Program-made: the position numbers and the translations under genes | The notes under the pieces: model-generated | Databases searched by the model: none | Told to the model about the DNA's origin: nothing | The model's input: only the letters and a program-made list of their open reading frames with translations | In this document: positions 14,758 to 25,045 of the stretch, one piece after another | Position numbering within the stretch: the first letter of the stretch is position 1 | How the letters are laid out: each line of letters starts with the position of its first letter | Source: Serratia oryzae | Lineage (GTDB): Bacteria; Pseudomonadota; Gammaproteobacteria; Enterobacterales; Enterobacteriaceae | Reading direction: 5' to 3' | NCBI RefSeq assembly: GCF_001976145.1 | Contig: NZ_MOXD01000001.1 | Span: 1-64,000, forward strand | DNA: 64,000 bases

Positions 14758-15429
14758 TTAATCACACTTTCCGCAGCCCCAGCGATAAATAGGCCATCCT
14801 GCTGCCCTGGCATGTTGCAGTAAAGCAGCATCAGGATTCACCACACAAGGGGTGCCTACCTGCGACAAAAGCGGCAGATCGTTGTAAGAATCGGAGTAAA
14901 AGCTGGCGCGTTGTAATATTGAGGCATCGTTGCCCAGTTGCATCAACAGGCGAGTCACTTTACCTTCACGGTAAGTCATTACGCCCTGAGTCAAGCCGGT
15001 GTAGATTTCATTATCTAATTCGACGCCAATGGCCAGTGCATCGTCTACTTCCAAATAACGAGCAATGGGTGATACCAAGTGCTCTCCTGATGCGGAGACG
15101 ATCATGGTTCTGTCGCCACGAGCACGATGTCTGGCAATACATGCTCTGGCATCAGCATAAATACGCGGGCTGATAATCTCCTCGATATAGCGTTTAACCA
15201 TTTTGCTGACATTGTCCTGCGAACGACCTTTAAGTGGTGCCAACGTCAAATGCATATAGTCCTGCATATTCATTTTGCCTTGCGCATAGTCACTCATCAG
15301 TTCGGCTTCCCGCTGAAGAAATGCCTGTGGGTCGTGCACCCAGCCATGCTCTACCATAAACGACGACCATAGACTGGAGCAGTCCCCGTTTATTAACGTT
15401 TCATCGAGATCAAATAGCGCCAGATTCAT
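14758..15429 (-). CDS. HAD-superfamily phosphatase, subfamily IB (SerB-like)
   Basis: 223 residues. Motif I FDLDET (D7, D9) at the N-terminus, motif II 'MIVSASGEH' near 110-118, motif III Lys in 'YREGKVTRL', and motif IV 'FYSDSYNDLPLL' near 178-189 give a full HAD-IB active site. Such proteins remove phosphate from small metabolites; the substrate is not known. Its ATG overlaps the TGA of an upstream frame (ATGA), showing it once was the last gene of a coupled operon whose ABC transporter part is now mostly deleted. SD GAGG lies 5 bases upstream. Confidence 0.85.
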   Translation of the reverse strand: MNLALFDLDETLINGDCSSLWSSFMVEHGWVHDPQAFLQREAELMSDYAQGKMNMQDYMHLTLAPLKGRSQDNVSKMVKRYIEEIISPRIYADARACIARHRARGDRTMIVSASGEHLVSPIARYLEVDDALAIGVELDNEIYTGLTQGVMTYREGKVTRLLMQLGNDASILQRASFYSDSYNDLPLLSQVGTPCVVNPDAALLQHARAAGWPIYRWGCGKCD

Positions 15430-15892: not shown

Positions 15893-17611
15893 TTATCCGT
15901 GGCGCCAACGCTGGGTTTTTCTCAATAGAGTGCGGCTGAGACCAAGCTGAATCAGTTTGACGTTGGCGGCGGTCAGCAGGATCAACGTAGCCATGGCAGC
16001 AGCAGCAGCGGTGTCTCCAGAATCCTCCATGTTAAGCACCGCAATTGAGGCCAGTACACTGTCGCTTGAGTAGAGGAAAATCACCGCCGATGTTGTGGTC
16101 ATCGCGTTGACGAACAGATAGATAAAAATCTCCAACAACGCGGGCAGCGAGGCTGGCAGCGTGATGCGCCAGAACGTCTTGAACTGTGAAATCCGCAGGG
16201 AGATAGCAACCAGTTCCAGCTCTTTGGGTAACTGTTTCAGGCTGGTCAGCGCCGTCATATGGCCCACCGTGTAGTAGTGGATTACGCAAGAAAGTGCCAT
16301 CAGCGGTAAGGTGCCGTAAAGGCTGCCAAGCAGGCTGTCGGGGCGGTTGAAAAAGAAAATGTAACCCAGGCCCAACACAATGCCGGGGACTGCTAACGAG
16401 AGCATGGCAAGCAGGTGTATCAACTGGCGCAACAGAGCAAAGTGATGCCCTTTTTCTTGCACCCACGCGATGATCACGATGATGGCCGTACCGCCGGTGG
16501 CAGTTAGCGCACCCAGTTTTAGCGTATTGATAAAGGGTAGCCAACCGTAAACGCTGTTACTGCTGAAAGCATAGTGATCCAGCGTCAGGGTGAGCTTATA
16601 AGGCCAGAATTGCACCAGTGAACCGTAGATGGCCATCCCAACCAGCGCCAGAAACAGCAGGGCCCACAGACTACACCACAACAGAGCCAGCAGATCCCGT
16701 AACCGATGGGGAGCCGGTTGGTAGGGGATCGCCCGGCTGTTGTTCTGTTCCTGCATTTTACTGCGTACCCGTTGTTCCAGGGCAAAACTGAGCAGAGCGG
16801 GCAGCAGCAAAACCACGCTGGTCACCGCTCCCAGAGAGAAGTTTTGCATCCCTACCACCTGGATATAAATATCCGTTGCCAGCACGCTGTACTGCCCCCC
16901 GATCACCTTGGCTACGCCAAAGTCACAAATCGTGAGCGTGAAGACGGCAATGGCGGCGCTGAGCAGGCCATAGCGGGCACCTGGCAATGTGACGATGAAA
17001 AAGGTACGCCAGGCGGGGCTGCCGAGCACCCTGGCGGCTTCATAGTGACGAGCATCACTGTGGCTTAGGGACGTGATCAGGATCATCAGGGCGTGGGGAA
17101 AACACCAGAAGCCGAGGCCGAGCGCGATACCGATTGGGCCATAGACCGTCTGATTGCCCAATAATCCTTTGGCGATCCCTTGGTTACCAAACCAGTAAAC
17201 CAGGCTGATGGCAGGCAGCAGCGACGGCATCAGCAAGGGAAGCAGAGCAATTAATCGAAACAGCGATTTACCGCGCATCTGGGTGCGAGTGAGGGCGTAG
17301 GCATAACCAAAAGCAATGGTGATCACCAACAGTGTGACAAGAAAACCAAGCCAAAGCGTATTACCGATGGTGCGTCCCAGCGAGGGGGCGGAAAGATAAT
17401 CGCGGAAGTTAGCGAAACCGACCCAGGCCCCCTCACTGTCCTGAAGGCTTTTTTGCAACATGCTGAGTACCGGGAGCAATAATCCACCGACGAACAGCGC
17501 GATCCCAAGCAACAGAAGTGCTAACTGGATACGCTTATCCAGGCTCCAGTTGCCACCCAACCGCTGCCAGATTGAATAACGTGCTGTCATTGTTTGGGGC
17601 AAATGTGTCAT
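15893..17611 (-). CDS. phnU: 2-aminoethylphosphonate ABC transporter, fused two-domain permease
   Basis: 572 residues from the ATG that overlaps the phnT stop (ATGA); an upstream extension of the frame lies inside phnT and is rejected. Two binding-protein-dependent transport permease domains occur in tandem, each with a coupling (EAA) loop: residues ~191-211 (EAARVLGSPAWRTFFIVTLPGA) and ~466-488 (ELVAISLRISQFKTFWRITLPAS). About twelve membrane spans. The chain joins what are separate PhnU and PhnV in Salmonella, as in the two-domain AEP permease family. It forms the inner-membrane channel for PhnS-delivered 2-aminoethylphosphonate, driven by PhnT. Confidence 0.88.
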   Translation of the reverse strand: MTHLPQTMTARYSIWQRLGGNWSLDKRIQLALLLLGIALFVGGLLLPVLSMLQKSLQDSEGAWVGFANFRDYLSAPSLGRTIGNTLWLGFLVTLLVITIAFGYAYALTRTQMRGKSLFRLIALLPLLMPSLLPAISLVYWFGNQGIAKGLLGNQTVYGPIGIALGLGFWCFPHALMILITSLSHSDARHYEAARVLGSPAWRTFFIVTLPGARYGLLSAAIAVFTLTICDFGVAKVIGGQYSVLATDIYIQVVGMQNFSLGAVTSVVLLLPALLSFALEQRVRSKMQEQNNSRAIPYQPAPHRLRDLLALLWCSLWALLFLALVGMAIYGSLVQFWPYKLTLTLDHYAFSSNSVYGWLPFINTLKLGALTATGGTAIIVIIAWVQEKGHHFALLRQLIHLLAMLSLAVPGIVLGLGYIFFFNRPDSLLGSLYGTLPLMALSCVIHYYTVGHMTALTSLKQLPKELELVAISLRISQFKTFWRITLPASLPALLEIFIYLFVNAMTTTSAVIFLYSSDSVLASIAVLNMEDSGDTAAAAAMATLILLTAANVKLIQLGLSRTLLRKTQRWRHG

Positions 17612-18672
17612 GCGGCTTCCCCATAAAACAGTTGCATGGCGTTGTTGGGCCACAGCAGGGAACAGGCCATGCCGCTGCGCCAGTCTTGGCCTGCGTCGTT
17701 GGAGAGTTGTACCAGCAATCGCTGGGGGCCCATCACTGTTTCTGCAATGCAAATCAGGCGTTGGGCGGAGCCGAGAAACTCCACCTGTTCGATCCTTGCC
17801 GGTAATCCTGGCTGTTCCGGCGAGGCAAGGCTGATCGCTTCGGGGCGGATAGCCACTTGCAGTGTACTGCCTGTGGCTGCCTGATTGGCCAGCTGCAGTG
17901 GGTGTTGGTCAAGCCGCACCTGGTGTGCATTCAGCACCAGAGTATCGAGAAAATTCATATTACCAACAAAACTGGCGACAAAGCGGCTGGCAGGATGGTG
18001 GTAGATCTCCTGTGGTGTGCCAATTTGCACGATGGTGCCGTGTTCCATGACCGCGATGCGGTCAGCTATGGTGAGTGCTTCTTCCTGATCGTGGGTAACC
18101 ATAATCGTAGTAATGCCCAAGCGCTGTTGCAGGGCGCGGATCTCGCTGCGCAGATGGGTACGCACCAGCGCATCAAGAGCGCTTAGCGGTTCGTCGAGCA
18201 GCAGTAATCCAGGGGACAGGGCCAATGCTCTGGCCAAGGCAACTCGCTGCTGTTGGCCACCGGAGATCTGGCTCGGATACTGGTGAGATTGCGCACTAAG
18301 GCCGATCAAATTCAGCCAATGCTCAACCCGCTCTTTGAGTGCCTTATTATTGATCCCCTGGTTTTGCAGACCGAAAGCAATATTCTCTGCAACCGTCAGA
18401 TTGGGGAACAGGGCATAGGATTGAAATACGATACCAAAATCCCGTCTCTGCGGAGGGAGTTGTGAAATATCGTGTCCTCCTTGCCAGATCTGGCCGCTGT
18501 CTGGCAGATCAAGCCCGGCAATAGCCCGTAACAGGGTGGTCTTGCCGCACCCTGAAGGGCCAAGAAAACAGATAAACTCGCCTTGTTCGATGCTCAGAGA
18601 GATATCTTTGAGAGCCTGAAAGGCCCCAAAGTGTTTATTAAGATGTTTGATATCCAGATAGGGCTGGCTCAT
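17608..18672 (-). CDS. phnT: 2-aminoethylphosphonate ABC transporter ATP-binding protein
   Basis: 354 residues from ATG 18672 (a TTG two codons upstream is less likely). Walker A GPSGCGKTT at 39-47, Q-loop region 'GIVFQSYALFPNLTV', signature SGGQQQR at 137-143, Walker B LLLLDEP at 156-162, switch His in 'VTHDQEEA', and a TOBE-type C-terminal domain (~270-350). It powers uptake of aminoethylphosphonates with the fused permease and PhnS. It is translationally coupled to the permease. The promoter carries a PhnR-type palindrome and phased Pho-box-like repeats. Confidence 0.93.
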   Translation of the reverse strand: MSQPYLDIKHLNKHFGAFQALKDISLSIEQGEFICFLGPSGCGKTTLLRAIAGLDLPDSGQIWQGGHDISQLPPQRRDFGIVFQSYALFPNLTVAENIAFGLQNQGINNKALKERVEHWLNLIGLSAQSHQYPSQISGGQQQRVALARALALSPGLLLLDEPLSALDALVRTHLRSEIRALQQRLGITTIMVTHDQEEALTIADRIAVMEHGTIVQIGTPQEIYHHPASRFVASFVGNMNFLDTLVLNAHQVRLDQHPLQLANQAATGSTLQVAIRPEAISLASPEQPGLPARIEQVEFLGSAQRLICIAETVMGPQRLLVQLSNDAGQDWRSGMACSLLWPNNAMQLFYGEAA

Positions 18673-18690: not shown

Positions 18691-18704
18691 TTGGTCTATA
18701 CCAA
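18691..18704. promoter_or_regulatory. PhnR operator candidate, phnT copy
   Basis: TTGGTCTATACCAA, an almost perfect palindrome of GntR/HutC type. It touches the candidate -10 (TATTTT on the minus strand, 18703-18708), so binding here would block RNA polymerase. Confidence 0.75.
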
Positions 18705-18758
18705 AATAGCGTTAAGGGGTGACGAACAGATGAATAGAACATGACGGTTTGGTGACGA
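18703..18758 (-). promoter_or_regulatory. Pho-box-like repeats and -10 of phnT
   Basis: Minus strand: TCGTCAC-N4-CCGTCAT-N4-TATTCAT-N4-TCGTCAC (18758 down to 18719). All four units are in exact 11-bp phase and all keep the TCA core of the PhoB half-site (CTGTCAT). A 10-bp gap then leads to TATTTT as -10. This is the arrangement of PhoB-activated promoters with two tandem Pho boxes. Confidence 0.6.
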
Positions 18759-18819
18759 GTACTGCCAGAGACAAAAAGCAAAGGCTGATGGCGCTCAGCC
18801 TCTGCAGCAAATAAGCAAC

Positions 18820-19839
18820 TTATTGTTTAGCTTCTGATTTTCCATTGAAGCTGCTGGCCCACTGGGTCAAGATATTGTTGCGCTCGCGGGCAGCCCAGGC
18901 AAAATCATTCTTGATCATCTGACTGTTGATATCAGTTGGATAACCGGCCCGGGTTTTTGCCACTTGTGGGATGGCGACGACAGCAAACGACTTGTTATAC
19001 AGGGTGTTTGCCTGTTCAGTTGCTGCAAAATCAAGCAATTGCCGAGCGGCGTCGAGCTTTTTGGTGCCCTTGATGATAGCCGCCGCTTCCATATCCCAAC
19101 CCGAACCTTCGCTGGGGAATATCACTTCGATAGGAGCCCCTTTGGCCTTAAGGCTCGCAGCAGGGAAATCAAATGAAATACCGATCACCGTTTCGCCGCT
19201 GGCAGCCAGTTTGCAAGGTGCAGAACCCGAATGGGTGTAACGATCGATATTCTGGTGCAGTTTGTTCATAAACTGCCAGCCTTGCTGTTCCCCCATGGTT
19301 TGCAACCAGCCAGCCACGCTGAGGAACCCGGTGCCAGAAGAGGTGGGGTTTGGCATGATCACTTTACCCTTGTAGATAGGCTTGGTGAGGTCGGACCAAT
19401 GGGTTGGAGCCGGGATACCCTGTTTTTCAGCTTCTACTGTGTTAAAGCAAATAGCACTGAAAAAAGCGTCCAGCCCAATCCAGTGGGGTTGGGCCTTGTC
19501 GTCGCGAAAACGGCTGTCCAGTTTATCCAGCCCTTTAGGGGCGTAGCCTGCCAGCATCTGTTGCTGATCCAGTTGCATCAGACTGGTCGCAGCCAGCCCC
19601 CACACCACGTCGGCTTTGGGCTGGTTTTTTTCAGCCAGCAGCCGTGCCGTGATCACACCAGTGGAATCCCTCACCCACTTGATGTTGATATCGCGGTGTT
19701 GGCGCTCGAAGGCATTTTTCAACTCGGCAAGTTGTTCGGGTTCGAAAGCGGTGTAAACGGTCAGATCGGTGTTGGCCAGTGCGGGTACGGCGATGGTGGC
19801 CAGCAGGGCGGTGATAAGCAAGGAGGTTCCCTGTTTCAT
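18820..19839 (-). CDS. phnS: 2-aminoethylphosphonate ABC transporter, periplasmic binding protein
   Basis: 339 residues from ATG 19839 (SD GGAG); the longer frame upstream crosses the operator and lacks an SD. The signal peptide (residues 1-22, ending VPALA) is followed by 'NTDLTVYTAFEPEQLAELKNAFERQ', the start of iron(III)/AEP-type class II binding proteins. 'HWIGLDAFFSAICFN' and 'NPTSSGTGFLSVAGW' are conserved ligand-cleft regions. It captures 2-aminoethylphosphonate (and probably its 1-hydroxy form) in the periplasm for PhnT and the fused permease. It is separated from phnT by ~150 bp with a promoter of its own for phnT. Confidence 0.9.
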   Translation of the reverse strand: MKQGTSLLITALLATIAVPALANTDLTVYTAFEPEQLAELKNAFERQHRDINIKWVRDSTGVITARLLAEKNQPKADVVWGLAATSLMQLDQQQMLAGYAPKGLDKLDSRFRDDKAQPHWIGLDAFFSAICFNTVEAEKQGIPAPTHWSDLTKPIYKGKVIMPNPTSSGTGFLSVAGWLQTMGEQQGWQFMNKLHQNIDRYTHSGSAPCKLAASGETVIGISFDFPAASLKAKGAPIEVIFPSEGSGWDMEAAAIIKGTKKLDAARQLLDFAATEQANTLYNKSFAVVAIPQVAKTRAGYPTDINSQMIKNDFAWAARERNNILTQWASSFNGKSEAKQ

Positions 19840-19855
19840 TTTTTCTCCAGTGAGG

Positions 19856-19869
19856 TTGGTATAAACCAG
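19856..19869. promoter_or_regulatory. PhnR operator candidate, phnS copy
   Basis: TTGGTATAAACCAG, matching the palindrome found before phnT, phnR and phnW. It is 16 bp upstream of the phnS ATG, in the transcribed leader or promoter start. Confidence 0.75.
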
Positions 19870-19899
19870 ATTGTGCTGGAGAAAGGCTAGGAGATTATT

Positions 19900-19939
19900 G
19901 TGACATTTTTGTGATGAAAACATAACAACTTGATGAGTT
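19900..19939 (-). promoter_or_regulatory. Weak Pho-box-like repeats before phnS
   Basis: On the minus strand AACTCAT, TTGTTAT, TCATCAC and ATGTCAC follow each other in 11-bp phase. Matches to the PhoB half-site are 4, 5, 4 and 6 of 7. No strong -10 sits at the expected 10-bp distance; TAATCT 2 bp after the last unit, with TTTTCA as -35, is an alternative sigma70 promoter. Confidence 0.35.
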
Positions 19940-19960
19940 TAGCACCTACCCCAATCGGCC

Positions 19961-20668
19961 CTAATCCTGAGTGTCCACGTCAATTTCAAGGCTATCGTGA
20001 CGCCAGTATTCGAGATCGAAATCGAGTACCTGACCATGCTGATCGAAGTTGAGACGTTCCAGGCGTAGTGCAGGTAACCCGGCAGTGGCGCGCAATTGAC
20101 TGGCAACCTCGTCCGGCAGTGCAGTGGGATAAAAGGTGACCTGCATGCGAGCGTAATGGAGCCCGTAATGGCTTTGGTAAAGTTCGGTCAGGCTGCCATT
20201 GAGGTCAAGATCGAGCAGACCGGGAACGCGTTTGGGAAGGCAGTAGTTTTCGCAGTAACAGATCGCCCGATCGTTAGCAAAGCGCAGTCGCTTGAGCAGA
20301 AATACGCTGTCAAATGTCTTGAGCGATAACCGTGACAGTAAAGCAGGAGGGACGGCGATCCGGCTTTTTTCCAATAGCTCGGTGCGTGGTTTGCCCCCTT
20401 GTTCAGAGACTATCTGGTGAAAATTGGAAGTACGTCGCGGATTAAGACGAAAACGCGGGGGCGTCACAAACCAGCCACGGCGATCTTGCCGATAAATAAG
20501 CCCGTTGGCCTCTAACTGGACCAATGCTTCACGGATGGTGACCCGGGTAGTGCCATACAGCTCCCCCAACAACCGTTCGGAGGGAAGTTTGTCATGTGCG
20601 GTCAAACCCCCTGCCTTGATCTGGGTGATCAGAGCATCCTTGATTTGCAGGTATTGTGGTTTTGTCAT
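19961..20668 (-). CDS. phnR: GntR/HutC-family phosphonate utilisation regulator
   Basis: 235 residues. The N-terminal winged helix (residues ~1-70, 'LPSERLLGELYGTTRVTIREALVQLEANGLIYRQDRRGWFV') is the GntR signature, and the C-terminal UTRA-type sensor domain covers ~90-230. SD AAGGATC precedes the ATG. It lies between the importer and the divergent phnW operon. The palindromic sites in front of phnS, phnT, phnW and phnR itself fit a HutC-type dimer, so it probably represses all four units, with an aminoethylphosphonate or phosphonoacetaldehyde as effector. Effector and sign of control are inferred. Confidence 0.9.
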   Translation of the reverse strand: MTKPQYLQIKDALITQIKAGGLTAHDKLPSERLLGELYGTTRVTIREALVQLEANGLIYRQDRRGWFVTPPRFRLNPRRTSNFHQIVSEQGGKPRTELLEKSRIAVPPALLSRLSLKTFDSVFLLKRLRFANDRAICYCENYCLPKRVPGLLDLDLNGSLTELYQSHYGLHYARMQVTFYPTALPDEVASQLRATAGLPALRLERLNFDQHGQVLDFDLEYWRHDSLEIDVDTQD

Positions 20669-20682
20669 AATGATCCTTTATT

Positions 20683-20696
20683 TTGGTACAGACCAG
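20683..20696. promoter_or_regulatory. PhnR operator candidate, phnR copy (autoregulation)
   Basis: TTGGTACAGACCAG, 14 bp upstream of the phnR ATG. It is the least symmetric of the four copies, which would fit weaker autorepression. Confidence 0.65.
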
Positions 20697-20779
20697 TCTC
20701 TGTCGGCACGATGAGGGAAACAGATTACCCCATAATTGAGGATGAATATGAATTTTTTGTTGCACGATAGGGACATCCT

Positions 20780-20808
20780 TTGACGTTACGTGGCAATTTA
20801 CTCACAAT
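20780..20808 (+). promoter_or_regulatory. phnW promoter
   Basis: TTGACG (20780-20785), 17-bp spacer, CACAAT (20803-20808). The palindromic operator at 20818-20831 lies directly downstream, over the expected transcription start. Confidence 0.55.
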
Positions 20809-20817
20809 GACACTGTT

Positions 20818-20831
20818 CTGGTATATACCAA
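20818..20831. promoter_or_regulatory. PhnR operator candidate, phnW copy
   Basis: CTGGTATATACCAA with a perfect 12-bp palindromic core (TGGTATATACCA), the best of the four copies. It sits 12 bp before the phnW ATG and just after its -10. Confidence 0.8.
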
Positions 20832-20843
20832 AAGAGAGTCATT

Positions 20844-21986
20844 ATGACCCATATTCCTGCTGTATCTGCCTGTGTTGATTATCTGTTATTGACTCCCGGG
20901 CCTCTGTCGACCACGGTTTCCGTGCGTTCTGCCATGTTGCAAGACAGTTGCACCTGGGACACCGACTATAATCTGGGCGTCGTGGAGCCCATTCGCCGCG
21001 AATTGGTGCGCCTTGCGACAACTGAGGAGTTTGCCGCCGATTACAGCGCTGTTTTGCTGCAGGGGAGTGGCAGCTATGTAGTGGAAAGCGTACTGGGTTC
21101 GGCACTGCGGCCTGCTGATTGCCTGCTGATTGTCAATAATGGTGCCTACGGTGCACGCATGGTTGAGATGGCACACTGCCTGGGTCTGAACCATCATGTG
21201 CTGGATTGTGAAGAAACGGCTCGCCCGGAAATACAGGATCTGGAAGAACTGCTGATTAAGCACCCTGAAATCAGCCATCTGGCAATGGTTCATTGTGAAA
21301 CCACCACCGGCATGCTCAATCCACTGGAAGACGTGGCTGCCTTCTGTCAACAGCGAGGCATTCGTCTGATTGTGGATGCGATGAGCAGCTTCGGTGGTAT
21401 TCCTTTTGATATCGGGCGCCTTGGTATTGAATTTCTTATCAGCTCTGCCAACAAGTGTATTCAGGGGGTACCGGGATTTGGTTTCGTTATTGCCCGCCGC
21501 ACGGCTTTAGCGGCCTGTGCGGGTCAAGCACGTTCGGTATCGCTTGATCTTCACGCCCAATGGCAGACCATGGAGCAGCAGGAAGGGAAATGGCGTTTTA
21601 CCTCCCCAACTCACACCGTGCTGGCCTTTGCTCAGGCGTTGCGCGAATTGGATGACGAGGGGGGAATCACTGCTCGCCACCAACGTTACCAGGAAAATCA
21701 GCGTGCGCTGGTGGAAGGGATGCAATCTCTTGGTTTTACGCCGTTATTACCCGCGCAATGGCAATCGCCTATCATCACCGCCTTTTACTCCCCGGCTAAT
21801 CCAGAATATCGTTTTGCCAATTTTTATCAATGCCTTAAGGCGCGGGGATTTGTGATCTATCCCGGCAAGGTTTCGCAGACTGAGTGTTTTCGTATCGGTA
21901 ATATCGGCAATGTCACGCTGCAACAAATTCAGCAGTTGCTGGTTGCAATGAAGCAGGCTTGCTACTGGTTGGAAGGTAGCCGATGA
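20844..21986 (+). CDS. phnW: 2-aminoethylphosphonate--pyruvate transaminase
   Basis: 380 residues, class V aminotransferase fold. '[19 protein letters not shown]' at the N-terminus and '[17 protein letters not shown]' followed by '[16 protein letters not shown]' (PLP lysine Lys204) identify PhnW. It moves the amino group of 2-aminoethylphosphonate to pyruvate, giving phosphonoacetaldehyde and alanine in the cytosol. First gene of the phnW-pbfA-phnX operon; its stop overlaps the next start (ATGA). SD AGAGAG. Control is by the operator just upstream. Confidence 0.95.
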
Positions 21987-23359
21987 GACAGCATACAGCG
22001 CTACCCGGTGGTGGGCTGGCAGACACTGAAGGGGACATCAACCGAAGCGTGACAAGGGAGCATTGGTGGGCCGAGCAGAGTGAGGCTATTCGAGAGGATC
22101 TGGCGGAAGATAGCCGATATTTTCTTCATCAGGCGCTGTCGACCCCGTGCCTGGATGTGTTGGCCAGGGCCGAAGGGACTTATCTCACCAGCCAGTCTGG
22201 CAAGCAGTACCTTGATTTTCATGGTAATAGCGTACATCAACTTGGGCACGGTCACCCGAAGGTTGTGGCACGGGTGCAGCAGCAGTTGACGTCGCTGCCG
22301 TTTGCACCGAGACGTTATACCCATTCTGTTGCCATCAAGTGTGCCCGTACCTTGGCCAACTTGGCACCTGGCGATCTTAACCGGGTGTTATTTGCGCCCG
22401 GTGGCAGCGAAGTGGTCGGCATAGCCCTTAAGTTGGCCCGTTTTATTACGGGTAACAGCAAGGTGGTTTCTTTATGGGATTCTTTTCATGGGGCTTCTCT
22501 TGACGCCATCTCTGTTGGCGGTGAGGCTTGTTTTCGCGCTGGTATGGGGCCCTTGTTAGCGGGAGTTGAACGCATCCCACCACCGACCCGTTATCGCGGG
22601 GTTTGGTATCGCGGTGAGGGTGAAGATCTGCACTATGCCGATTACCTTGAGTATGTGATCGAAAAAGAGGGGGGGATCGGTGCCTTTATTGCTGAACCAA
22701 TCCGTAATACTGATGTACAGGTGCCATCCAAAGCCTATTGGCAGCGTATCCGCGAAATCTGCGACCGACACGGTGTGTTGTTGATCGCTGATGAGATCCC
22801 TAATGCACTAGGGCGTACCGGCCACTGGTTCAGTTTCGAACAGTTTGGTATCGAGCCAGACATCATCTGCCTTGGCAAAGGGTTAGGTGGCGGTATTGTT
22901 CCTTTTGCTGCTCTGATTACCCGGGATCGCTTCAATCAGGCGGCGGCTATCTCGCTTGGTCATTACACCCATGAGAAAAGCCCTATCGGTTGCGCAGCGG
23001 CGTTGGCGACTATTGAGGTGATCCGTGATGAGCGGCTTTTAGCCAAGGTACAGCATGATGGCCGCTTTATGGCGGATGAGTTGGCCAAATTGGCTCGACG
23101 CTATCCGTTGATCGGCCAGGTGCGAGGTACTGGCCTATTGTGGGCTCTTGACCTAGTGCGTGATCACCTGAGCCGTGAGCGGGCAACCGGGGAAGCGGAA
23201 CAATTGCTCTATCGCTGTCTGACGCTGGGGCTCAGTTTCAAGGTGTCGCAGGGCAATGTGATCCAACTTTCTCCGCCACTGACTATCAGCCGCGCTGACC
23301 TCGCGCGCGCCATTTCTATTCTTGATCTGGCATTGAGCCAGATTGAACCTACTGTTTAA
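21983..23359 (+). CDS. pbfA: PbfA-like (R)-1-hydroxy-2-aminoethylphosphonate ammonia-lyase
   Basis: 458 residues, class III PLP enzyme fold. '[19 protein letters not shown]' near 77-95, '[17 protein letters not shown]' near 137-153, Asp270 in '[15 protein letters not shown]' and the PLP lysine Lys299 in CLGKG. The family resembles aminotransferases. Its place between phnW and phnX, and the unusual [11 protein letters not shown] in place of DEVQTGFGRTG, fit PbfA, which eliminates ammonia from (R)-1-hydroxy-2-AEP to yield phosphonoacetaldehyde. This would widen the diet of the pathway to hydroxylated AEP. An ordinary omega-aminotransferase role is the alternative. Confidence 0.8.
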
Positions 23360-23372
23360 CAGGAGTATTCCT

Positions 23373-24182
23373 ATGTCTAGTGTACAAGCGCTGATCCTTG
23401 ATTGGGCAGGCACCGTGGTCGATTTCGGTTCGTTTGCGCCCACGTCCATCTTTGTAGAAGCCTTCGCACGAGCCTATGATTTCCCGGTTAGCCTGGATGA
23501 AGCTCGTCAGCCGATGGGGTTGGGAAAAAGGGAGCATATTGTCGCGTTGGGGCGTTTGCCATCGGTGGATAGCCGTTGGCAAGCACGTTTTGGTCACTCA
23601 ATGAGTAAAGAAGAGGTCGATCACATCTATCGCACCTTCATGCCTTTGCAAATTGAGGCTGTCACCCGCTTTGCCACCCCTATTGAGGGCGTTTTGCCTG
23701 TGTTGACAATGCTCCGCCAGCAGGGAATGCGCGTAGGCTCTTGCTCTGGTTATCCCCATCAGGTGATGGAGGCACTAGTGCCTGCTGCTGCAAAACTGGG
23801 TTATCAACCCGATCACTGGGTAGCGACCGACGACCTGAAAGCCGGTGGGCGCCCGGGACCCTGGATGGCGCTCGCCAACGTCATTGAGTTGGGCATTGAT
23901 GGAGTACATCGCTGTATCAAGGTGGATGATGCGGTACCGGGTATTACCGAAGGGCTTAACGCAGGCATGTGGACTGTAGGGTTGGCAGTTTCCGGCAACG
24001 AGTTTGGTGCCACCAGGGATGAGTATCAGGCGATGAGTGAAGCGGAAATTGCTGCTCGGCGAGCGCCAGCCCAGAAGAAACTGCATCAGGCAGGAGCACA
24101 TTATGTGATTGATACACTAGCCGATATTCTGCCAGTGATCGCTGATATCAATCAGCGTTTAAATAAAGGCGAGAGGCCTTAA
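23373..24182 (+). CDS. phnX: Phosphonoacetaldehyde hydrolase (phosphonatase)
   Basis: 269 residues from ATG 23373, with SD AGGAG 7 bases before; the longer frame overlaps pbfA. HAD superfamily with the phosphonatase-specific motif I '[12 protein letters not shown]' (nucleophile Asp10) and the cap lysine Lys52 in 'MGLGKREH', which forms the Schiff base with the aldehyde. '[15 protein letters not shown]' and '[12 protein letters not shown]' are motifs II and IV. It splits the C-P bond of phosphonoacetaldehyde to acetaldehyde and phosphate, the end point for PhnW and PbfA. Confidence 0.96.
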
Positions 24183-24565: not shown

Positions 24566-24651
24566 TGGTACCCGGGGCGGGACTTGAACCCGCACAGCCA
24601 TAAGCCGAGGGATTTTAAATCCCTTGTGTCTACCGATTTCACCACCCGGGC
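24566..24651 (-). tRNA. leuZ: tRNA-Leu (anticodon UAA)
   Basis: 86 nt with encoded CCA. Acceptor GCCCGGG pairs with CCCGGGT, the anticodon loop TTTAAAA carries TAA, a long variable arm (CTCGGCTTATGGCTGTG region) marks class II, and GGTTCAAGTCC is the T loop. The same order (tRNA-Cys then tRNA-Leu) occurs in the E. coli glyW-cysT-leuZ operon. Confidence 0.95.
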
Positions 24652-24661
24652 TCGGGAAAAT

Positions 24662-24735
24662 TGGAGGCGCGTTCCGGAGTCGAACCGGACTAGACGGATT
24701 TGCAATCCGCTACATAACCGCTTTGTTAACGCGCC
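24662..24735 (-). tRNA. cysT: tRNA-Cys (anticodon GCA)
   Basis: 74 nt with CCA. Acceptor GGCGCGT / ACGCGCC, anticodon loop TTGCAAA (GCA), T arm GGTTCGACTCC. It is 10 bp upstream of tRNA-Leu. No tRNA-Gly precedes it, unlike in E. coli. Confidence 0.95.
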
Positions 24736-25045
24736 TTAATTCTGTTTGCCTTTTCAGGCCAAGACTCGTGATACACCAGCCTTATCAAACTTTACTAGGA
24801 TAAGCATTCATAATTATGACTTATCTCTATGAAAACACTAAACTTTCTTAACGATGTGTGCTTTCGATGTGCAGGATTATGGACTAATTAAAAAAGGTTG
24901 GCAACAAAAAATTGCGTAATCCAACTGGCGCTCTGCTCGTTTGCTCAAAACTTACCTTATCTGAGTATAATCTAATCAATTCAGTATCTTGGCGGCTATT
25001 TTACCGAACTATTTCTGGTTAGCCGCCAAGAGTGAAAACGCATTA
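24736..25045. other. AT-rich spacer between tRNA pair and trk gene
   Basis: About 310 bp holding the tRNA promoter region and the 3' flank of the Trk gene. GCCAAGA at ~24760 and TAGCCGCCAAGA before the Trk stop stand out weakly; no gene or clear hairpin is visible. Confidence 0.4.

Follow-up and report, generated by a model that had tools for sequence, protein, structure and literature searches.

In Salmonella, 2-aminoethylphosphonate (2-AEP) uptake and its breakdown by PhnW and PhnX are encoded by phnSTUV and phnWX, both of which depend on PhoB (PMC10715179) and are accompanied by PhnR, a regulator of family TIGR03337. Substrate control of such pathways has been described through LysR-type regulators, and the name PhnR is also borne by an unrelated LysR-type regulator of Pseudomonas fluorescens (both PMC10574752). 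For the GntR-type PhnR we found neither an operator nor an inducer in the literature searched, including the accessible parts of PMC5351497, PMC10574752, PMC9311074, PMC10715179 and PMC8154272, RegPrecise and most subscription papers lying outside that search. The window analysed here, a stretch of 64,000 nucleotides from Serratia oryzae (contig NZ_MOXD01000001.1, positions 1 to 64,000), carries a phn locus with phnR, phnS2, phnT2 and phnU2 (phnS and phnT for short) in this order on the minus strand and phnW, pbfA and phnX on the plus strand. It has the regulator family, 2-AEP uptake and PhnW-PhnX breakdown in common with the Salmonella system, and differs from it in its PhnS2-T2-U2 transporter, in pbfA, in a separate phnT unit and in a putative operator ahead of phnR. 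Local control of this locus by putative PhnR operators is well supported, and we estimate at roughly three in four the probability of a fuller scheme, predicted from the sequence, in which PhnR represses four units through four operators, forms a "PhoB AND not-PhnR" gate with PhoB and is released by a phosphonate-type inducer.

A sequence-only reading of this DNA had placed one copy of a palindrome ahead of each of phnT, phnS, phnR and phnW, and the four 14-mers lie exactly there: O-T before phnT (18691-18704, minus strand, TTGGTATAGACCAA in the phnT direction), O-S before phnS (19856-19869, minus strand, CTGGTTTATACCAA in the phnS direction), O-R before phnR (20683-20696, minus strand, CTGGTCTGTACCAA in the phnR direction) and O-W before phnW (20818-20831, plus strand, CTGGTATATACCAA), with 12-bp cores ending 13-19 nt before the start codons. 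The GntR/HutC operator layout attributed to them is present as well, GT-N4-AC, the usual layout in the HutC subfamily (PMC4494728, section 11), being found at all four sites and conserved. O-W, described as a perfect palindrome, is one over its inner 12 bp (TGGTATATACCA) and not over the full 14 bp. The window has seven occurrences of the pattern TGGTNNNNACCA where 0.86 would be expected; none of 100 shuffles reaches seven, and four of the seven are the operators. Genome-wide, the loose motif TGGTN4ACCA is found at 175 places (109 for a reversed-pattern control); 0.075 copies are expected in the 2,141-bp stretch holding the four operators, and the Poisson probability of at least four there is 1.2e-6 for a stretch chosen post hoc. 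The strict form YTGGTNTANACCAR is not common genome-wide: it has three places in the 5.01-Mb genome, all of them in the phn locus, before phnT, phnS and phnW. With one mismatch allowed it has 43 (control 20), among them O-R, which departs from YTGGTNTANACCAR at its centre and has no central TA step.

Searches with TIGR03337 at E <= 1e-60 matched 38 of 198 genomes of the family (18 above the family cut-off, own genome included) and 97 of 394 genomes of the order (60 above it). Setting the own genome aside, there are 75 over-cutoff PhnR places, of which 74 were fetched (the remaining one, in G545, lies on a short contig and was not fetched at length), and 20 hand-chosen sub-cutoff loci were added to them. 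Among the clades, f1 is the window's own family and f25 the nearest group. In the clade tables, operators are counted only within 150 nt of an aligned gene start. These tables omit the two f10 loci and 13 of the 30 fetched f21 loci, whose phn cluster is incomplete or which are truncated by the end of the stretch or contig; of their four f12 rows, one is a sub-cutoff locus (L173).

All four operators are kept in 11/11 fetched f25 loci, which are 77-88% identical to the window over the seven proteins and have the same gene order as far as the stretch reaches. The 17 f1 loci, with PhnR proteins 55-62% identical to that of the window, differ from it in having one site before phnW, kept in all 17 (in the clade table, a long alignment start had led to that of L093 being counted under phnR), and, in 11/17, a second site after phnR. 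Sites precede phnT in 16/17 and phnS in 11/17 of the f21 loci with a phn cluster, phnS in 10/11 f2 loci, and phnW and phnS in 4/4 and 3/4 f12 loci respectively. The sequence TTGGTCTATACCAR stands before phnW in both Edwardsiella hoshinae and Paraglaciecola hydrolytica, and a Pseudomonas locus (L022) has neither phn genes nor a site near phnR. When 256 half-sites were counted with each of 15 spacers (0-14), TGGT-N4-ACCA came first in f25, f1, f21 and f12 and tied for first in f2. Read along transcription the operators are asymmetric, CTGG..CCAA, at 44/44 f25 sites and 3/4 window sites.

The sites follow the phn genes. Of the over-cutoff loci whose fetched stretch includes phnW, 58/59 have YTGGTN4ACCAR (119 sites per Mb), the sole miss, L129, having the core with a different flank, against 2/15 of those without phnW (8 per Mb), and in both of these (L142 and L143) a truncated phnW sits at the edge. 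These figures come from pattern searches, matrix scans having covered the window and chosen loci and regions, and indicate that the sites track the phn genes and not a PhnR-like protein as such. The same pattern is found in 3/3 sub-cutoff loci with phnW and in 6/17 without (21 per Mb). The anticipated enrichment at the phn promoters of related genomes is seen too: in 16 hand-chosen PhnR genomes (11 from f25, 5 from f1) YTGGTNTANACCAR has 57 places, 42 of them in phn loci (33 in f25, 9 in f1), and the 15 outside match the reversed-pattern control, which also sums to 15. Eleven of these 15 were read, and eight lie inside open reading frames of at least 100 aa, some of which may be false. Control by PhnR of all four units, itself included, had been predicted, and the rarity, conservation and phn linkage of the sites support it, with the qualification that self-control is supported only in the window and its 11 closest relatives, phnR having no operator of its own in f1.

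Variants of the site accompany more distant regulators. In 14 of the 17 sub-cutoff loci scored, the two best matches in the 250 bp ahead of the regulator gene include a variant palindrome, and in nine of these 14 it is CTGGTCTAGTCCAG. Sub-cutoff loci L161-L165 and L169-L172 have no phnW; in them CTGGTCTAGTCCAG precedes the gene of the PhnR-like protein by about 190-220 bp, and a PhnT2-like ATPase is encoded at a distance of 4-5 kb. The PhnR-like protein of these loci is probably a sister regulator whose specificity has shifted. The f21 loci L116, L135, L137-L141, L154, L156 and L158 have an over-cutoff PhnR and no full phn cluster, and TGGTN4ACCA was not found in their fetched stretches. In G520, one clusterless PhnR copy occurs alongside a complete locus.

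The graded quality that had been suggested for the sites is borne out, and more sharply than was claimed. A matrix trained on 31 distinct f1, f21, f2 and f12 sites, without the window and f25, ranks the operators first to fourth in the window (O-W 22.5, O-T 20.9, O-S 18.9, O-R 18.8; next match 14.8), and the centres of the sites fall into classes. A central TA is present in 37/37 phnW and 30/30 phnT sites (67/67 together) and in 12/12 phnS sites of the window and f25, and in 0/36 of those lying across the phnW divergent region on its far side (phnR in the window and f25, 12 sites; phnS in f21, f2 and f12, 11, 10 and 3 sites), counts that amount to a handful of lineages, as loci within one clade are not independent. 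Thus the O-R centre is never TA in the 11 fetched f25 loci; f1 has no far-side site, and the sites that follow phnR there all have a TA centre (11/11). The spacing from O-R to O-W stays at 135-136 bp in the window and f25 while the distance from O-R to the phnR start varies between 15 and 114 nt, and in seven f21 and f12 loci with both sites measured the operator pair is 188-199 bp apart (188-190 or 196-199). These spacings are in part near whole helical turns, which we take as a lead only. A more specific proposal, to which we give a little less than an even chance, is that the phn units are AND gates of a PhoB array and a PhnR operator with two fixed operator classes, TA-centred at phnW and phnT, and non-TA, presumably weaker, at the far side whichever gene stands there (phnR in the window and f25, phnS in f21, f2 and f12), the weak partner setting the order of release or looping with O-W.

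Beside the operators lie arrays resembling Pho boxes. In aligned upstream regions, CTGTCAT-like heptamers are seen at an 11-bp period before phnT and phnS; they were scored with a heptamer matrix from Escherichia coli Pho boxes. The phnT array (18719-18758, minus strand) has four heptamers at this period, ends 10 nt before TATTTT and is the best four-heptamer array of 127,922 window positions (15.7, next 11.5); the phnS array (19900-19928, minus strand), also seen in the alignment, has three and is seventh of 127,944 three-heptamer positions. In the clades, arrays were called as three heptamers at a per-position tail below 0.001, with about 120 positions tried per region; on this basis they precede phnT in 11/11 f25, 17/17 f21, 10/10 f2 and 6/14 f1 loci, and phnS in 11/11 f25, 10/10 f2, 3/4 f12 and 2/2 f1 loci. 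Such arrays beside the operators suggest a logic of PhoB AND not-PhnR.

Between phnR and phnW there is a conserved 18-mer, ATGAATTTTTTGTTGCAC (20748-20765, given no strand), identical in 11/11 f25 loci and matching at no fewer than 15 of 18 positions in 16/17 f1 loci; its exact copy is the sole one in the genome, which has six places at up to three mismatches. It lies 70-72 bp before the phnW TGGT wherever both were measured, and this fixed distance makes a protein site likelier than a phnR -35, a candidate role that was rejected, visual inspection of the portion of the f1 alignment at hand having shown no convincing hexamer at a suitable distance. All 5/5 f21 loci in which O-W is intact have a Pho-like match (scores 9.2-17.1) that precedes O-W by 71-75 bp, and in 10/17 f1 loci one of the two top-scoring Pho-like matches is the 18-mer. 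It is possible, from its position, that the 18-mer is a diverged Pho box on the minus strand.

A phnW promoter is predicted at 20780-20808 (plus strand, TTGACG-17-CACAAT) and is picked up by a promoter scan. As that scan gave three promoter-like sites in the stretch and 3.0 in shuffles, the prediction rests on the hexamers, which are largely conserved in f25 and f1, and not on the scan. O-W begins 9 nt past the predicted -10 (20803-20808), and O-T shares 2 nt with a -10-like TATTTT recognized by eye at 18703-18708, so that both placements relative to the -10 are as the sequence-only reading had them. A possible phnR promoter with weak hexamers (TTCATA-17-GGTAAT, 20724-20752, minus strand), also found by eye, would put the start of O-R 27 nt past its -10. 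Between phnS and phnT lies a terminator-like hairpin with a T-run (18778-18805, minus strand), which has 11 pairs and is the longest of ten found, 3.6 being expected in shuffles. The position of O-W past a -10, that of O-T at a -10 after an array, and the hairpin ahead of both array and O-T together have the anatomy of repression laid over activation by PhoB.

We infer from these features that PhnR is the binder, that it represses and that PhoB acts on the same units. PhnR would bind the four TGGT-N4-ACCA operators and repress phnW-pbfA-phnX, phnR, phnS and phnT-phnU2. At O-W, just past the phnW -10, and at O-T, at the phnT -10, bound PhnR would block RNA polymerase, and at O-R, probably within the phnR leader, it would act as a road-block. 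Its UTRA domain would bind a candidate inducer named from the pathway (2-AEP, hydroxy-AEP or phosphonoacetaldehyde), upon which PhnR would be released. The hairpin, read from 18805 to 18778, would end the phnS unit ahead of the phnT array and O-T. At phnS, phnT and perhaps phnR-phnW, expression would then require PhoB to be on (phosphate starvation) and PhnR to be off (substrate). The earlier account of the locus is incomplete in this respect, as it leaves out the Pho-box-like arrays, the phnS-phnT hairpin and the classes of TA centre.

Several observations weigh against this scheme, and some of them would favour PhnR as the sole controller of the locus, the TGTCA-like repeats being there by chance or as sites of another factor. 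The arrays are degenerate, neither of them being in the top eight of a two-heptamer scan of the window; the phnT array is found in 0/4 f12 loci and the phnS array in 6/16 f21 loci; and the 18-mer between phnR and phnW has a Pho-box score of 0.6 in the window and f25, which is background, and the window's top-scoring Pho-like 18-mer ahead of phnW (8.6) is a different one that is not conserved. Control by PhnR alone nevertheless seems unlikely to us, given the rank of the phnT array among the four-heptamer arrays of the window, its presence in every f25, f21 and f2 locus scored and the requirement of Salmonella phnSTUV and phnWX for PhoB (PMC10715179). The distribution of the operators is also uneven: in f1, phnR has no operator of its own and 6/17 loci have no site after phnR, in f21 the phnW site is present, within the 150 nt counted, in only 5/17 loci, and a phnR operator is found, among the fetched loci, in the window and f25 only.

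Nor is TGGT-N4-ACCA peculiar to PhnR, as it is an ordinary GntR/HutC operator with a core common to HutC-type regulators generally. An exact copy, TTGGTTTAAACCAG, lies at position 1392 of L218 (genome G084), 13 bp before an open reading frame that by eye resembles another GntR regulator, and a second regulator may share the operator in that genome. The main binder in Serratia oryzae could be another HutC-type regulator of the host, which encodes five further UTRA proteins, the GT-N4-AC core being common to HutC-subfamily operators (PMC4494728). We consider this very improbable, since the best matrix matches near those five genes, in a radius of about 1.5 kb, reach at most 9.3, against 18.8-22.5 at the operators, and since from genome to genome the sites go with the phn cluster. 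Some GntR-family regulators activate transcription, and PhnR might do so through some of the sites; O-W and O-T are at or past the predicted -10, the usual position for a repressor, and there is accordingly little to recommend activation. As for a chance cluster, the loose motif is frequent enough in the genome (175 places) to raise the question, but the Poisson probability given above, the matrix ranks of 1-4 and the retention of four sites out of four throughout the fetched f25 loci leave it a negligible prospect, and we reject it. Repression by PhnR superimposed on activation by PhoB thus remains the reading we prefer.

All seven phn products score above curated NCBI family cut-offs in profile searches. 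The regulator gene phnR (19961-20668, minus strand) encodes a protein with an N-terminal GntR and a C-terminal UTRA domain, both above the Pfam cut-offs, as expected of the GntR/HutC group, and scores 379.4 bits against TIGR03337 (cut-off 296.75); 2-AEP uptake genes and phnWX adjoin it, the neighbourhood expected for that family. The transporter genes had been named phnS and phnT, a naming that has to be corrected, since the proteins pass the cut-offs not of PhnS/PhnT/PhnU/PhnV but of PhnS2, PhnT2 and PhnU2: the substrate-binding protein PhnS2 (18820-19839, TIGR03261), the ATP-binding protein PhnT2 (17608-18672, TIGR03265) and a single fused permease, PhnU2 (15893-17611, TIGR03262), all encoded on the minus strand. 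On the plus strand follow phnW (20844-21986, 2-AEP:pyruvate aminotransferase, TIGR02326), pbfA in the middle (21983-23359, NF049939) and phnX (23373-24182, phosphonoacetaldehyde hydrolase, TIGR01422). Downstream of phnU2 on the same strand is a gene for a HAD-IB hydrolase (14758-15429), with a histidinol-phosphatase model as its best match, below cut-off; it did not turn up in any of the 11 f25 loci fetched.

By protein identities the phn products of the window are closer to f25 than to f1, and G078, the only genome of the same genus searched, has no PhnR match at E <= 1e-60; from these two facts the switch probably travelled with its genes. The phn genes have a G+C content of 53.4%, lower than the 60-64% of four f25 loci, and a transfer, if any, was therefore not recent or not from these f25 loci. 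Genes for tRNA-Leu and tRNA-Cys (24566-24735) follow phnX at a distance of about 0.4 kb. At the matching place G078 has tRNA-Gly, tRNA-Cys and tRNA-Leu, the window having no tRNA-Gly there, and similarity of the window to G078 ends at 24792. This tRNA region is a possible point of insertion or rearrangement. A repeat of the tRNA-Leu 3' end was looked for as an att site, and none of at least 14 bases is present in the window.

The GntR-type PhnR has been a name in databases, and an operator kept in five families makes the bacterial decision to use 2-AEP directly testable; the locus also appears to place pbfA, for hydroxy-AEP, under the same switch as the genes for 2-AEP. Its parts are of known kinds, and we found no description of this wiring in the searchable literature. 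PhnF of Mycobacterium smegmatis, which controls phnDCE, is likewise a GntR repressor with two sites in a divergent promoter region (PMC7866108). It differs in controlling a phosphate transporter, and the PhnR of the window is below the cut-off of the PhnF family TIGR02325 (92.3 against 156.8 bits). The PhnF site of M. smegmatis is reported as TGGTATAGACCA, which is identical to the O-T core; an exact-text literature search gave one unrelated paper. The dre-sites of NagR and DasR, also of the GntR/HutC type, are palindromes of the same HutC kind in which two guanines are read by two arginines, R38 and R48 in NagR (PMC4333415), and these align with R32 and R42 of PhnR. The inducers there are amino sugars, and the native Bacillus dre-sites are imperfect palindromes (PMC4333415). 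In Pseudomonas putida, AepR-phnWX resembles the present locus in layering substrate control with general starvation control for 2-AEP (PMC10574752, PMC9311074), the substrate control being exerted in that case by a regulator of the LysR type.

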